This document shows, in pieces, positions 32,184-36,636 of a stretch of DNA of 64,000 nucleotides. The notes beneath the pieces were generated by a model. The model ran no database searches and had not been told where the DNA came from. It worked only from the letters and a program-made list of their open reading frames with translations. Origin of the DNA: Rhizobacter sp. SG703. Lineage in GTDB: Bacteria; Pseudomonadota; Gammaproteobacteria; Burkholderiales; Burkholderiaceae_C. The position numbers and the translations under genes are program-made. Every line of letters begins with the position of its first letter. Position 1 is the first letter of the stretch. The stretch spans positions 62,001 through 126,000 of the forward strand of contig NZ_JAAZQK010000009.1 of assembly GCF_012275445.1 (NCBI RefSeq), written 5' to 3'.

Positions 32184-32933
32184 ATGACCGGAGCCCGAGT
32201 CCCTGCCACAGGACACATCGTCAGCACGCAGCGCCATGCAGGCGCGCCGATCGGTCAGGTGATGTACGTGAACAAGGTGGCGAGCGACGGCTGGCTGCAG
32301 GTCAAGCCCGAGAGCCGGACGGGCCTCGTGCCGCTGTGCAAGTACACGAAGCTGGCCATGACGCACTTCGCCGATGGGCGAACCTACTTCAAGGTGCTGG
32401 ATGGCCACCACAAGGGCCAGGTGATGAGCCTCGGCGATGCGAACGCCAAGGAGTATCTCGGCATCCGTGCGCCCGTCCAGTCTGCGGCACAGATCGTGGT
32501 CACCTATGGGCGCTTTGAAGCAGCGTGGCATTCGTCGGTTCGAAAACTGAACATCGATCAGCAGATGGCAACGATGTCCATCGGCAGCATCCAGGTGCAG
32601 GTGACGATGAACTCCGACTGGCGCGGGCTCTTCTACCCCTTGCCCCCTGGAAGTTACGCGGTGCTGCTGCCGGATGCACCGCACGACAAGAACATGACGC
32701 AGTACTACCGAGAAGGTGCGCCCGGCATGAAGTTCGACCAGGTCTGGTTCCCGATCCGCTTCGGCGACAACAGCCGGTACGTGCACGTCGGCAATGTGTC
32801 CGATGGCTGCGTGACGGTGCTCGACCTTGCTCGCTGGAATGACGTGCACGAGGCGCTGATCAGCCACCGCGGAAGCGATGGAGCCAGCGTTGCACAGTTG
32901 ACGGTCAAGGGCACGCCGGAGCGGGCGCGATGA
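32184..32933 (+). CDS. L,D-transpeptidase-like (YkuD-type active site) protein without a signal peptide
   Basis: A 249-residue protein. The C-terminal 110 residues resemble the YkuD/L,D-transpeptidase core: PPGSYAVLLPD, then HVGNVSDGCVTVLDL, where His and Cys stand in the H-x-G...S-x-G-C arrangement of the catalytic site. The N-terminal 110 residues (VSTQRHAGAPIGQVMYVNKV...) match nothing I know. No signal peptide or membrane segment is visible, odd for an enzyme whose substrate would be periplasmic peptidoglycan. It overlaps the next gene by 4 bases (ATGA); that gene encodes a secreted protein. G+C is locally low (31 of 60 at 32521-32580). A toxin-immunity pair is a possible reading, not shown. 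Confidence 0.6.
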   Translation: MTGARVPATGHIVSTQRHAGAPIGQVMYVNKVASDGWLQVKPESRTGLVPLCKYTKLAMTHFADGRTYFKVLDGHHKGQVMSLGDANAKEYLGIRAPVQSAAQIVVTYGRFEAAWHSSVRKLNIDQQMATMSIGSIQVQVTMNSDWRGLFYPLPPGSYAVLLPDAPHDKNMTQYYREGAPGMKFDQVWFPIRFGDNSRYVHVGNVSDGCVTVLDLARWNDVHEALISHRGSDGASVAQLTVKGTPERAR

Positions 32934-33547
32934 AGGCCCCAACCGGATGGCGCACGATGCGTCTGGCAGCGCTCGTCGGGGTGCTCGTGTCGGCACTGAC
33001 GACGGCGCATGCGGACGGCACGGCGACCTCTCCCGACGCTGCGCGGGTACTCGCCGATCTTCAGGCTGCGCGCAGCAAGCAGACGGCAGAAGGTCGCAAC
33101 GCTGCCAAGCGCTTGAATGCGCTCGGCGACAGTGCCTACAGGCGCCAGGATTACGAAGTGGCGTACAAGGCCTATTCCAACTCGTATCCCAACTTCCCGA
33201 CCTCCTACGCTTACCTGATGTCGGCAGACGCGCAGTGGCGTTCCCTGGTGCAGTTCCAGCGGAAGAGGGCGGTGCAGGAATCCTCGGCCACTGCGGCCTG
33301 TCTCGAAGCCAGCGGCCGGTTCATTCATGGCATGAAGATGGACCTCGCGCAGCACTACGAAGTGGGACTTGCACTGGCCAGCGAAGAGCGCGACAAGCAG
33401 TTGCTGAAGTCGCCGATGTTCTCGCGAGCGCGCGAGTCGTTCACCTGCCTGCAGACCGTGGCGAAAGAGCTGGAAGCCTTGCCGGCGAACTCATGCGTCG
33501 ACATCGGTCGGGTGCAGCAATGCCTGGGCGAACCCCTGTTGAAGTAG
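32930..33547 (+). CDS. secreted small protein, putative partner or immunity protein of the YkuD-like gene
   Basis: A 205-residue protein with a Sec signal peptide (LAALVGVLVSALTTAHA, then DGT). The mature part is mostly helical, with a TPR-like segment (LNALGDSAYRRQDYEVAYKAYSNSY) and four cysteines, two in the C-terminal CVDIGRVQQCLGEPLLK. I do not recognise the family. It overlaps the upstream L,D-transpeptidase-like gene by 4 bases, so the two are co-translated. A second, frameshifted copy of the gene lies at 34177-34744, beyond an oppositely oriented regulator. A periplasmic protein coupled to a leaderless peptidoglycan-enzyme-like protein, with a duplicate nearby, is the pattern of interbacterial effector immunity genes; this is inference. 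Confidence 0.65.
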   Translation: MKAPTGWRTMRLAALVGVLVSALTTAHADGTATSPDAARVLADLQAARSKQTAEGRNAAKRLNALGDSAYRRQDYEVAYKAYSNSYPNFPTSYAYLMSADAQWRSLVQFQRKRAVQESSATAACLEASGRFIHGMKMDLAQHYEVGLALASEERDKQLLKSPMFSRARESFTCLQTVAKELEALPANSCVDIGRVQQCLGEPLLK

Positions 33548-33612: not shown

Positions 33613-34170
33613 TCAGGCCGCCAGCAGCTTGTAGATCAGCTCCGGCGTCGTCGCCGCGCCGTACTTGCGCATCAGCCGCGCGCGGTAGACGTCGACGGTG
33701 CGCGGGCTGATGCCCAGCCGCTTGCCGATCAGCTTGCTGGTGAGGCCTTCGATCAGCAGCGCCGCGATCTCGCGTTCGCGGGCGGTCAGCTCGGCCTTCA
33801 GCTTGCGGCGCGACGACAGGTCTTCGAAGCTCCAGATGCCGGCCGCGTGCGGTTGCGCCGGGTCGAGCGCGCGGCCCGACACGTGGCACCAGAACAGCTC
33901 GCCGCGCTGCGGGCCGTCGACGCGCTTCATCACGCGTTCGTCGGCATACCAGCCGTCGGCATCGAGCGCGGCGACGATGCGCTCGCCGGTGCGCTCGAAC
34001 TCCTCGTGCGTCGGGTACAGCATCTCGAACGACTGGCCGACGAGCTGCTCGCGCGCCGCGCCGAACATCGCGAGCACCTGCTGGTTGCAATCGACCATCA
34101 ACCGGTTGCGCGACAGCACCAGTCCGACGGGGGCGAGGTCGAAGGCGGTGCGGTAGTCGAGGGTGGGCAT
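33613..34170 (-). CDS. PAS domain-containing LuxR-family transcriptional regulator
   Basis: A 185-residue protein. An N-terminal PAS domain (DYRTAFDLAPVGLVLSRNRL through WSFEDLSSRRK, about residues 4-120) is followed by a LuxR/GerE helix-turn-helix: LTAREREIAALLIEGLTSKL, IGKRLGISPRTVDVYRARLM. It has no receiver domain. The ATG at 34170 begins at MPTLDYRTAF, the natural start of the PAS domain; earlier in-frame starts run into the neighbouring gene. The gene sits opposite to and between the intact and broken copies of the small secreted protein. It may respond to a small molecule or redox cue through PAS; targets are unknown. Confidence 0.88.
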   Translation of the reverse strand: MPTLDYRTAFDLAPVGLVLSRNRLMVDCNQQVLAMFGAAREQLVGQSFEMLYPTHEEFERTGERIVAALDADGWYADERVMKRVDGPQRGELFWCHVSGRALDPAQPHAAGIWSFEDLSSRRKLKAELTAREREIAALLIEGLTSKLIGKRLGISPRTVDVYRARLMRKYGAATTPELIYKLLAA

Positions 34171-34176
34171 GGGAGC

Positions 34177-34744
34177 ATGGTACGGGGTGGAAGCCGCTGG
34201 GCAGATCTCGTTGCGATCTGCTTGACCGCCGTGCTTGCGGCCGGCTGCCACGCAAGGGGGACCGAAGAGCCTGCCCTGCAGAAGATGTCCCCGGCCGTCG
34301 CACAGCAGTTCGACCTGTCCCAACTTCCCGAATGCGCACGCGTACATCATGACGGGCGACGCCCACTGGAGAGGCGCCGTGCAGTTTCAGGAGCAGTCTT
34401 CTCCAGAGGGCACGTGCTGGTCGACCCCGGGTTTCGCAAGGGCGCTGGCCCTCGATCTCGAGCAGCACTGCAACATGGGCTTCGCGTTGGCAGAGCGCGA
34501 CCGGGACCGCGACGCGCTGGGGTCGCCGTTGTTCAAACGGGCTCGTGAGTCGGCGGCATGCCTCGATGAGATGGCACGGGATCGTCGCGCGTTGCTTCCC
34601 ACTGGCGCAGCAGGCGTCTGCACGTCCGTTGCAGATGGCAAGCCTTGCCGCATCCCGTCCGTCCGGCTGTTTCCGAAGCCGGCATCGGCCTGCGTCGACG
34701 TGACACGGATCCAGTCTTGCCTCGGCGAGCCGCTGCTCAAGTGA
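34177..34744 (+). pseudogene. frameshifted and shortened second copy of the small secreted protein gene
   Basis: From the ATG at 34177 one frame encodes a lipoprotein-like signal (LVAICLTAVLAAGCHARG) and then QQFDLSQLPE. The similarity to the protein at 32930-33547 continues in a different frame from about 34318 (PNFPNAHAYIMTGDAHWRG) to the stop at 34744, ending ACVDVTRIQSCLGEPLLK against SCVDIGRVQQCLGEPLLK. The segment corresponding to residues 60-80 of the intact copy is missing. The first start is only 6 bases from the divergent regulator's start, leaving no room for a normal promoter. A sequencing error, or use of the TTG at 34235, cannot be excluded, but neither restores an export signal in the long frame. 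Confidence 0.65.
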
Positions 34745-34754
34745 GCGGGGTGTC

Positions 34755-36482
34755 TCAGGCGGCAGACACCTCGGTCGTCGCCGCACCCCGGCGCCGAACG
34801 CGCCAGCCCACCCAGCCGGCACCCAACACCAGCATCAGTGCCGTCGCCGGCTCGGGCACCGCCGCCATCGGATTGCTGAACGCGACAATCTCGAACGCGG
34901 CGAAGAGCGGCAGCGCGCTGTGGTTGTGCACCGTCAGCGACAGCGCGCCGAAGGAATCGGCGCTGTACGTGAAGTCGTCCGGGCTGGCGACGCGGCCCTG
35001 CGAGCCGGCCCCGTAGTCGAACGGATCGCGGTTCAGCATCCATGCGCGCAGCGAAACCTCGTGCCGCGAGGCCTGCTCGTCGCGCAGGCTCGCGGTCGCG
35101 ACGTGGTAGTACTCGTCGTTGACGGTCTCGGTTTCGTAGTGCGTCGACAGCGGATGGGCATCGCTGCGATCGAGCGTTGCGATGCCGGACAGCGTCAGCG
35201 ACGCATACGGATCGAGCTTGAACGCGCGGTACCAGCTGATCTCGGCATCGGCGGTGTCGGTGGGCAGGTCGGTTCGCCAGCTCACCCCCAGGTGGTTCGG
35301 GCCCGAATGCGCCTCGGTCGACAGCGCCGAGCCGGGCAGCGGCGGCTGCTGGCGGGCCCCCACGCCGAACGGGGGACTGAAATCCAGGCCGTTCTGCATC
35401 GGGTACTGGAGGTCATGGCGCACGTTGTCGCCGTTCGCATGCCCGCTCGACAAGCTCGACCGGACGGTATTGCCGGTCCACCAGGTGCCCGCGCTGCCGG
35501 GCAGGCGCGGCGCGTCGGGCGTCGGTGCCAGTGTGACGATCGGGTCCAGCGTGAACGACGCACTGCCATGCGCTTCGGCATGGACGAGACCGGAGGTGCC
35601 CAACCCGGCGAGCAGCAGCGGCGCCAGGCGGGCGGTGCCGCGCCGGCGCAGCCGCCATGCCACCAGCCCGACACCGAGCGCCATCATCAGCACGGTGGCC
35701 GGCTCCGGGATCGCCTGCACCGAACTGAAGGCGAACACGCCCAGGCTCGCGAACAGCGGCGTGCTGGAATCGTTGTGCAGCGTCAACGACAGCGCGCCGA
35801 AGGAGTCGGCACTGTAGGTGAAGACGTCCGGGCCGCTGGCGTGGGCCTGCGACGGGTCGTTCCACACGGTCGGGTCGTCGTCCAGGATCCAGGCCTGCAG
35901 GCTGACGGCGTGCTGGTAGACGCTGTCGTCGCTCAGCGTCAGCGTCGCGAGGTTGTAGTTGCCGCCCGGCGCGAACTGGTAGTGCGTCGACAGCGGGTGC
36001 GGGTTGCTCCGGTCCAGCGTCGCCAGCCCCGACAGCGTGATCGACCCATGTGGATCCACCTTCACGAAGCGTTGCCACTCGATGCTCGCACTGGCGTTGT
36101 CGGTCGGCACATCGGTCGCCCAGCTCACGCCCAGGCTGTTCGTCGTGCTGTAGGCGCGTGTCGACAGCTGCGATCCGCCGAGTGCCGGGAACAGCCGGTT
36201 CGACTCGCCGAACGGTGCGCTGAACTCCAGACCGTTCGGGCCGACGACGTTCTCGTAGCGCTGCGTCGTGCCGCTCTGGTCCGGCGCCGTGTACATCTGA
36301 CTGCTGATGTAGTTGCCGGTCAGCCAGTTGCCGACATCGCCCGGCTCGCGCGGCGCATCGCGGCTCGCCGCGATGGTGGTGATCGGGTCCAGCGTGAACC
36401 CGGCCGAGCCGTGCTCTGCCGCCGGGGCGGTGGCCTGAAGCCCCAGTCCGGCCAGCATGATGACGAGTGCGTGGATCTTCAT
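34755..36482 (-). CDS. tandem-fused PEP-CTERM sorting domain protein
   Basis: A 575-residue secreted protein made of two homologous units in one frame. Unit 1 (1 to about 285) has a signal peptide, a beta-rich domain (GSAGFTLDPITTIA through YSADSFGALSLTLHN) and a complete PEP-CTERM signal: IPEPATVLMMALG, a membrane segment and RLRRRG. Unit 2 (about 286-575) starts with a second signal-like stretch (LAPLLLAGLGTSGLVHA), repeats the domain (GSASFTLDPIVTLA, YSADSFGALSLTVHN), and ends in a second PEP-CTERM (VPEPATALMLVLG, WRVRRRG). No Met suits independent translation of unit 2. AGGAG precedes the ATG at 36482. The exosortase is not in the window. The natural reading is a tandem gene duplication whose stop codon was lost. 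Confidence 0.85.
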   Translation of the reverse strand: MKIHALVIMLAGLGLQATAPAAEHGSAGFTLDPITTIAASRDAPREPGDVGNWLTGNYISSQMYTAPDQSGTTQRYENVVGPNGLEFSAPFGESNRLFPALGGSQLSTRAYSTTNSLGVSWATDVPTDNASASIEWQRFVKVDPHGSITLSGLATLDRSNPHPLSTHYQFAPGGNYNLATLTLSDDSVYQHAVSLQAWILDDDPTVWNDPSQAHASGPDVFTYSADSFGALSLTLHNDSSTPLFASLGVFAFSSVQAIPEPATVLMMALGVGLVAWRLRRRGTARLAPLLLAGLGTSGLVHAEAHGSASFTLDPIVTLAPTPDAPRLPGSAGTWWTGNTVRSSLSSGHANGDNVRHDLQYPMQNGLDFSPPFGVGARQQPPLPGSALSTEAHSGPNHLGVSWRTDLPTDTADAEISWYRAFKLDPYASLTLSGIATLDRSDAHPLSTHYETETVNDEYYHVATASLRDEQASRHEVSLRAWMLNRDPFDYGAGSQGRVASPDDFTYSADSFGALSLTVHNHSALPLFAAFEIVAFSNPMAAVPEPATALMLVLGAGWVGWRVRRRGAATTEVSAA

Positions 36483-36616
36483 CGCGTCGATCTCCTGAAG
36501 CTGCTGAGGGGCGCCCGGGGGCAACGGGCAGCAGGGCAAACGGCGTGCCCGGCGGGTGGCGGCGCGCCGCCTCTTCGCGCTTGACCCTAGTCATTTCTAC
36601 GTACCGCCGTCGCGGC

Positions 36617-36636
36617 CTACGTAACGCGTTACGTAG
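36617..36636. promoter_or_regulatory. perfect 20-base palindromic operator candidate upstream of the CoA-transferase genes
   Basis: CTACGTAACGCGTTACGTAG is a perfect palindrome 40 bases before the CoA-transferase subunit A start. A related half-site, CTACGTACCG, begins at 36598, so two binding units may lie side by side. The position between divergent genes suggests it covers the promoter of the CoA-transferase pair. Size and symmetry suit a TetR- or LysR-type dimer; no regulator gene is adjacent. Confidence 0.65.

Follow-up and report, generated by a model that had tools for sequence, protein, structure and literature searches.

The window, as we call the whole 64,000-nucleotide stretch of DNA analysed here, contains a gene that encodes two complete PEP-CTERM proteins fused head to tail in one reading frame. 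We propose, with a probability of roughly 0.6, that its product is an exported polyprotein, in which two partner PEP-CTERM surface proteins would be made as one chain and cut into products at a 1:1 ratio. This reading draws its support from the conservation of the frame in two species, the sequence motifs, the lack of a junction start with an SD energy ≤ -6, the dN/dS values, which stay well under 1 in each unit and over the whole junction, the presence of exosortases and the recurrence of such fusions. The mere presence of a PEP-CTERM tail and a leader is no proof of their use, because a gene fusion brings both for free.

The frame listing places the gene on the minus strand, with the ATG at 36482 and the stop codon at 34755-34757; a plus-strand reading of 34755-36482 was rejected. 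Alignment of the two units (residues 1-281 against 279-575) gave 52% identity over 277 columns, with an E-value of 4e-98. The earlier note had described a single 575-residue frame of two homologous units, each with its own PEP-CTERM signal and separated by a Sec-like stretch, and every part of this description was borne out. Both units carry the near-identical segments that the note had quoted (GSAGFTLDP/GSASFTLDP and YSADSFGALSLTLHN/YSADSFGALSLTVHN). TIGR02595 matches the internal site with 23.9 bits and the terminal site with 28.9 bits (cut-off 16), and the Pfam PEP-CTERM family (PF07589) matches two stretches of the fused protein with 30.9 bits (gathering score 20.7). The Sec-like stretch at residues 282-302, GTARLAPLLLAGLGTSGLVHA, follows directly after the first PEP-CTERM signal and ends in VHA followed by EA. 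One of the two sorting signals is thus C-terminal (residues 542-565), as in the usual type, whereas the other is internal and departs from it, since its motif, helix and basic cluster are followed by more protein (Table 1). Besides PEP-CTERM, the fused protein matches no Pfam family at E ≤ 1; few PEP-CTERM proteins match known families, according to the accessible text of the original description (PMC1569441).

Table 1. Positions in the window of the fused gene, its parts and the upstream palindrome
Feature	Position	Strand	Extent or basis
Fused gene, two PEP-CTERM units head to tail	34755..36482	-	575 aa + stop
N-terminal Sec-like signal peptide, aa 1-21, ending APA before A	36420..36482	-	sequence; hydropathy peak aa 3-17
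Unit 1 beta-rich domain, aa 22-256	35715..36419	-	alignment; low-confidence mostly-beta prediction
Internal PEP-CTERM signal, aa 257-281: PEP motif, hydrophobic helix, RRR cluster	35640..35714	-	TIGR02595, Pfam
Internal second leader, aa 282-302, APLLLAGLGTSGLV, ending VHA before EA	35577..35639	-	hydropathy, SD scan
Unit 2 beta-rich domain, aa 303-541	34860..35576	-	alignment, structure prediction
Terminal PEP-CTERM signal, aa 542-565	34788..34859	-	TIGR02595, 28.9 bits
Perfect 18-bp palindrome TACGTAACGCGTTACGTA, upstream of the fused gene, before the divergent gene	36618..36635	.	identical in three Rhizobacter genomes

A topology check gave hydropathy peaks at both leaders, namely 1.88 at the N-terminal one, which is hydrophobic and has a small-residue end (by eye and hydropathy), and 1.75 at the second, as well as at both PEP regions (2.05 at the internal PEP helix and 1.56 at the terminal region). 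However, two extra peaks (1.61 and 1.68) lie within the beta domains directly before the PEP tails, and one of them exceeds the terminal PEP helix, so that the topology does not follow from hydropathy alone. PEP-CTERM members are described, in the accessible text, as having no predicted membrane segments between the signal peptide and the PEP-CTERM, save for one three-member family (PMC1569441). The structure of the full fusion predicted by AlphaFold from three alignment rows is mostly beta and of low confidence (mean pLDDT 41), and that of the unit-2 domain, predicted from five rows, is nearly all beta (mean pLDDT 62.9). Structural similarity search of the PDB using Foldseek with the predicted structure gave no match at E ≤ 0.001, and a profile search of PDB sequences yielded two matches with an E-value of 0.2.

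The palindrome upstream of the fused gene looks like the operator of a regulator and has no second copy in the window when up to three mismatches are allowed; a TACGTA lies nearby at 36598-36603. Beyond it, a divergent gene pair resembles CoA-transferase subunits A and B by eye. On the other side of the fused gene, two small plus-strand genes (32930-33547 and ~34235-34744) look related and both end in ...CLGEPLLK, the second of which lacks a convincing N-terminus and is perhaps a remnant. Between them sits a minus-strand gene (33613-34350) that appears regulator-like, of the PAS-LuxR type by eye. Elsewhere in the genome, further PEP-CTERM matches form single-strand runs of three (L024, G000:C9:249562-252122) and two (L025, G000:C6:233872-234602).

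The same fusion, with an open junction and 88% identity, is present in Rhizobacter sp. Root1238 (G004, L030). This bears on the missed stop codon or indel that the earlier note had raised as a possible artefact. That a stop codon between the units is masked by an error of assembly or sequencing is extremely improbable: nothing found for locus A, the locus of the fused gene, speaks for it, and the open junction recurs in a separate assembly of another species, so that a sequencing slip in the window does not account for it. Moreover, a base-calling slip would not explain the loss of the internal ribosome-binding site, and the GC3 at locus A is highest in the coding frame among all three throughout the junction. 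In the short junctions of two fusions from other genera (G177a and G191, see below), another frame is equal or slightly higher.

Matches to locus A at E ≤ 1e-5 were found in four of the 11 genomes of the genus, namely the window's own (G000), Root1238, Rhizobacter sp. OV335 (G010) and, weakly, G003, and the fusion itself in two of the 11. A family-wide protein search, in which at most the best three candidates per genome were scored, gave matches at E ≤ 1e-8 in 3 of 399 genomes. At locus A, OV335 (L031/L033) possesses a single unit and lacks unit 1. Its protein groups with the unit-2 rows of the tree with a support of 100/97, and the units therefore look older than the split of OV335. The sole N-terminal signal of this gene is a leader of the unit-2 type, which aligns with the unit-2 leader, and the bases around the start match those of unit 1 (29/42); part of this likeness may be shared ancestry, because the units are homologous. 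On either account, a unit-2-type leader sits N-terminally on an ordinary PEP-CTERM protein in OV335. The homologue search accordingly yielded single-unit relatives in addition to the recurring fusions described below.

Comparison of the window with Root1238 gave, from small counts, dN/dS values of 0.43 for the unit-1 domain, 0.26 for the junction and 0.24 for the unit-2 domain. The value is 1.16 for the nine codons past the last Arg cluster, also from small counts, and 0.84 for the internal PEP tail alone, from one synonymous and two nonsynonymous changes.

We consider it very improbable that unit 2 is also made alone from an internal start, which would render the fusion one of two products. 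At codon 264, both the window and Root1238 have an in-frame GTG with an SD energy of -5.8, and an in-frame ATG is present at codon 283 in Root1238, just past RRR-Gly. However, the latter codon is ACC in the window, and none of the nine fused junctions offers a start with an SD energy ≤ -6 in the 120 nt preceding the leader, a cut-off that was chosen after the best junction start (GTG 264 of locus A) was known to reach -5.8. By contrast, all ten separate second genes have a start at this level, ranging from -6.4 for the weakest control, to which GTG 264 comes close, to -11.0 at the chosen starts. Even with an internal start, the polyprotein would still be made, as unit 1 has no stop codon.

A second, paralogous locus, termed locus B, shows a fusion arising from two genes, which are separate in two species and form one gene in a third. 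In the window's genome (L022) and Root1238 (L042), the stop codon of gene B1 and the start codon of gene B2 share the sequence ATGA, and a strong ribosome-binding site precedes B2. In OV335 (L035), B1 and B2 form one frame of 602 residues counted from its ATG, without the tail of B1, the ribosome-binding site and the ATG of B2. Loci A and B are separated in the tree, which indicates two independent fusions. By analogy, the pair at locus A probably existed as an operon and was fused later; the unfused two-gene state was not seen at locus A itself. The earlier note was thus supported in proposing an in-frame fusion of two complete PEP-CTERM proteins, but its further suggestion, a fresh tandem duplication that merely lost its stop codon, is probably incorrect, since the units are only 52% identical and the pair at locus B consisted of ATGA-overlapping genes first.

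Fusions beyond Rhizobacter were searched for using two profiles. Profile A3, built from three junctions, was applied to 200 family genomes, scoring up to 32 candidates in each, and to 274 class genomes, scoring up to 23, and profile A4, built from eight junctions, to 20 PEP-CTERM-rich genomes with 150 candidates scored in each; the survey gives a lower bound, since most genomes had only a portion of their candidates scored. For the 274 class genomes, the matches listed with A3 include no full-junction one besides the window's own. Reading of 14 candidate regions revealed six in-frame fusions. The arrangement of a PEP-CTERM signal, an Arg cluster, a leader and a second protein is present in two further genera (g53 and g78), and as singletons in two more (g63 and g117).

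In g53, genome G177 harbours two paralogues (L085 and L086), each composed of two homologous PEP-CTERM units. The two fusions of g78, L087 (G191, 1336-2934) and L088 (G087, 921-2519), come from two species, share 92% identity and consist of a PEP-CTERM protein, a leader and then a second protein. The second part gave no terminal PEP-CTERM match in either of them, and family search on L087 assigned to it CBM96/DNRLRE and collagen-repeat matches. Between G191 and G087, the dN/dS of the internal leader is 0.50 (from 2.5 + 2.5 changes), which is looser than the values of 0.21 and 0.16 for the domains. In the singleton of g63 (L089, G072), a PEP-CTERM protein with 18.7 bits, just below the Pfam score of 20.7, precedes a leader and a cyanophycinase-like protein (92 bits, cut-off 126.6); the two other genomes of its genus contain no relative of this fusion at E ≤ 1e-15. 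The singleton of g117 (L093, G126) joins, by eye, two dissimilar PEP-CTERM-type proteins. Both singletons may contain sequence errors. Among the other regions read, L090, L094, L095, L096 and L097 were rejected as fusions for having ordinary C-terminal PEP-CTERM ends, L091 and L092 for a stop codon after the tail, and L079 for the absence of a PEP motif. Outside the 14 regions, a match over profile positions 11-40 (L084) yielded no frame.

Profile A4 gave 680 matches summed over the 20 genomes, and among the matches listed five span the junction without a stop codon (two in G177 and one each in G072, G010 and G126); the ratio serves as a rough guide, because four of the five were already in the profile and some genomes were picked for their fusion. 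Fusions are rare. As judged by eye and hydropathy, all nine fusions share a PEP motif (PEA in G177b), a hydrophobic helix, an Arg-containing cluster, a short loop, a second hydrophobic stretch and a small-residue end.

Neighbouring genes might also have fused by neutral accident, with the internal signals remaining only for lack of time to vanish. The presence of the locus A fusion in no more than two of the 11 genus genomes is compatible with such an origin, as is the occurrence of PEP-CTERM genes in tandem pairs, from which chance fusions are expected. Against it, fusions recur at unrelated loci; two species share the one at locus A and two species of g78 share another, the G177 fusion outlasted a duplication of the whole gene, and dN/dS is well below 1 over both units; altogether we deem this explanation improbable.

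The genus of G177 (g53, four genomes) provides a closer view, since the relatives of the fused genes are arranged there as tandem pairs. In six of eight separate pairs, 28 to 68 nt lie between the genes, whereas in the other two the genes overlap, by 4 and by 11 nt; both genes are in the same frame in one pair of the eight. In a tree of 21 proteins, a clade (99/98) unites the nine first units, and the nine second units split from the rest (89/84); three proteins, the pair of G321 plus an additional gene of G254, fall outside both groups. The two fused genes of G177 cluster together among the first units (92/78) as well as among the second units (100/99), so that duplication of an already fused gene is probable, with both copies remaining fused as they diverged. 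Altogether, G177 carries six copies of the first/second cassette, two of them fused. The g53 cassette (L111-L118, L085 and L086) is possibly a two-component surface structure. A mirror-tree comparison of first against second units gave a correlation of r 0.72 over nine cassettes, which is no proof of contact because the cassettes are inherited together.

The fused G177 copies are 48% identical overall. Their internal signals show 68% identity in the PEP tail (17/25) and 59% in the leader (13/22), compared with 50% (116/230) and 37% (87/236) in their domains. The terminal PEP tail (26/29) is better kept than the internal one, and one internal motif reads PEA. This retention is our best evidence for a function of the internal signals. 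Profile comparison of the mature domains of the Rhizobacter and G177 units gave a probability of 74% with an E-value of 2.8e-5, and kinship between them is suggestive only.

The window's genome encodes two matches to the exosortase family PF09721 (239.7 and 92.8 bits, cut-off 25.7), and an exosortase is present in all seven other fusion-bearing genomes. Sorting tails of this type are described, in the accessible text, as composed of a motif, a helix and cytoplasmic basic residues (PMC11980579); in the published model, as far as the accessible text gives it, the PEP motif lies where the membrane meets the periplasm, while the helix holds the exported protein in the inner membrane (PMC1569441). 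For the fused protein, we propose that unit 1 would be exported via its N-terminal signal peptide until the internal PEP-CTERM helix halts the transfer, leaving the RRR cluster in the cytoplasm. This cluster would supply the second leader with its positive n-region, and the leader would re-enter Sec and export unit 2. With cuts by signal peptidase I behind VHA and by exosortase at each PEP motif, the outcome would be two mature surface proteins at 1:1 in addition to a discarded helical hairpin. The calculated mass is ~59 kDa for the uncut chain after removal of the first signal peptide, and ~25 kDa for each of the two predicted products. Unlike a soluble exported C-terminus, the end of the tail would lie in the cytoplasm, so that a second signal peptide can follow directly, which would explain the point of fusion. 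We infer the topology, both cleavages, the benefit of a 1:1 ratio and the partnership of the units from these features. There is about an even chance that Burkholderiales, of which Rhizobacter is a member, have repeatedly welded surface proteins into secretory chains that signal peptidase and exosortase split, with the Arg cluster of one protein forming the beginning of the following signal peptide.

Alternatively, the chain may stay uncut or be only partly cut, the two domains remaining joined by the membrane hairpin as one two-domain membrane-anchored protein. The distance from the PEP motif to the leader end is short, with 41-48 residues in all nine fusions, which would suit a stable hairpin, and G191 and G087 have a less typical leader end (ALEA/ALDA). 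Nevertheless, the G177 copies have kept PE(P/A), the Arg cluster and the small-residue leader end, none of which a mere linker would need. In addition, cleavage does occur in the archaeal precedent, the uncut form of which is unstable according to the accessible text (PMC7157517). We regard such a tether as unlikely. Between the two outcomes that the earlier note had put forward, two products or a silent internal site, the conservation of the junction favours two products.

The fused protein resembles the known PEP-CTERM/exosortase EpsH system (TIGR02595, PF07589 and PF09721) in that each unit consists of a leader, a beta-rich domain of low homology and a PEP-CTERM tail, in a genome that has exosortases. 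Unlike the usual PEP-CTERM proteins, in which the signal is normally C-terminal, it has two signals, the internal one being followed at once by a leader. The FbcH cytochrome b/c1 precursor of Bradyrhizobium is likewise a bacterial polyprotein, which signal peptidase splits at an internal signal sequence; its products are respiratory membrane proteins, without a sorting signal or a sortase. In a literature search outside of which most subscription papers fell, we found no bacterial PEP-CTERM/exosortase case of a mid-protein signal, nor a signal peptide joined at the Arg cluster, a chain with two sorting signals or a repeated origin.

Mid-protein sorting signals as such are already known from two proteins, as the accessible texts describe them. 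HVO_0405 of Haloferax volcanii is a fusion protein that is cut in vivo at a central site in an ArtA-dependent manner (PMC7157517, PMC9263693, PMC7305310). Similar to the window protein, this archaeosortase ArtA substrate has a tripartite sorting signal left mid-protein by gene fusion; it differs in being archaeal, described as a Tat substrate and equipped with a PGF-type signal, and the accessible texts mention neither a second signal peptide past the basic cluster nor a second sorting signal (PMC7157517, PMC9263693, PMC7305310). MXAN_5598 of Myxococcus also has a sorting tag inside the protein, an internal MYXO-CTERM tag that may stem from a fusion of two genes, and its processing has been proposed; in the same accessible text, MYXO-CTERM tags are stated to work mid-protein, and internal cases are given as rare, with one protein named (PMC11980579). 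It differs in depending on a myxosortase and in its second part, an outer-membrane beta-barrel with OmpA domains (PMC11980579).

The fusions point to partner pairs among PEP-CTERM proteins and show how one reading frame can give a bacterium two exported proteins. To our knowledge, the action of exosortases on their substrates has been little tested in bacteria. A substrate of ~59 kDa that is predicted to give two products of ~25 kDa would be a ready reporter for exosortase, as HVO_0405 is for archaeosortase.
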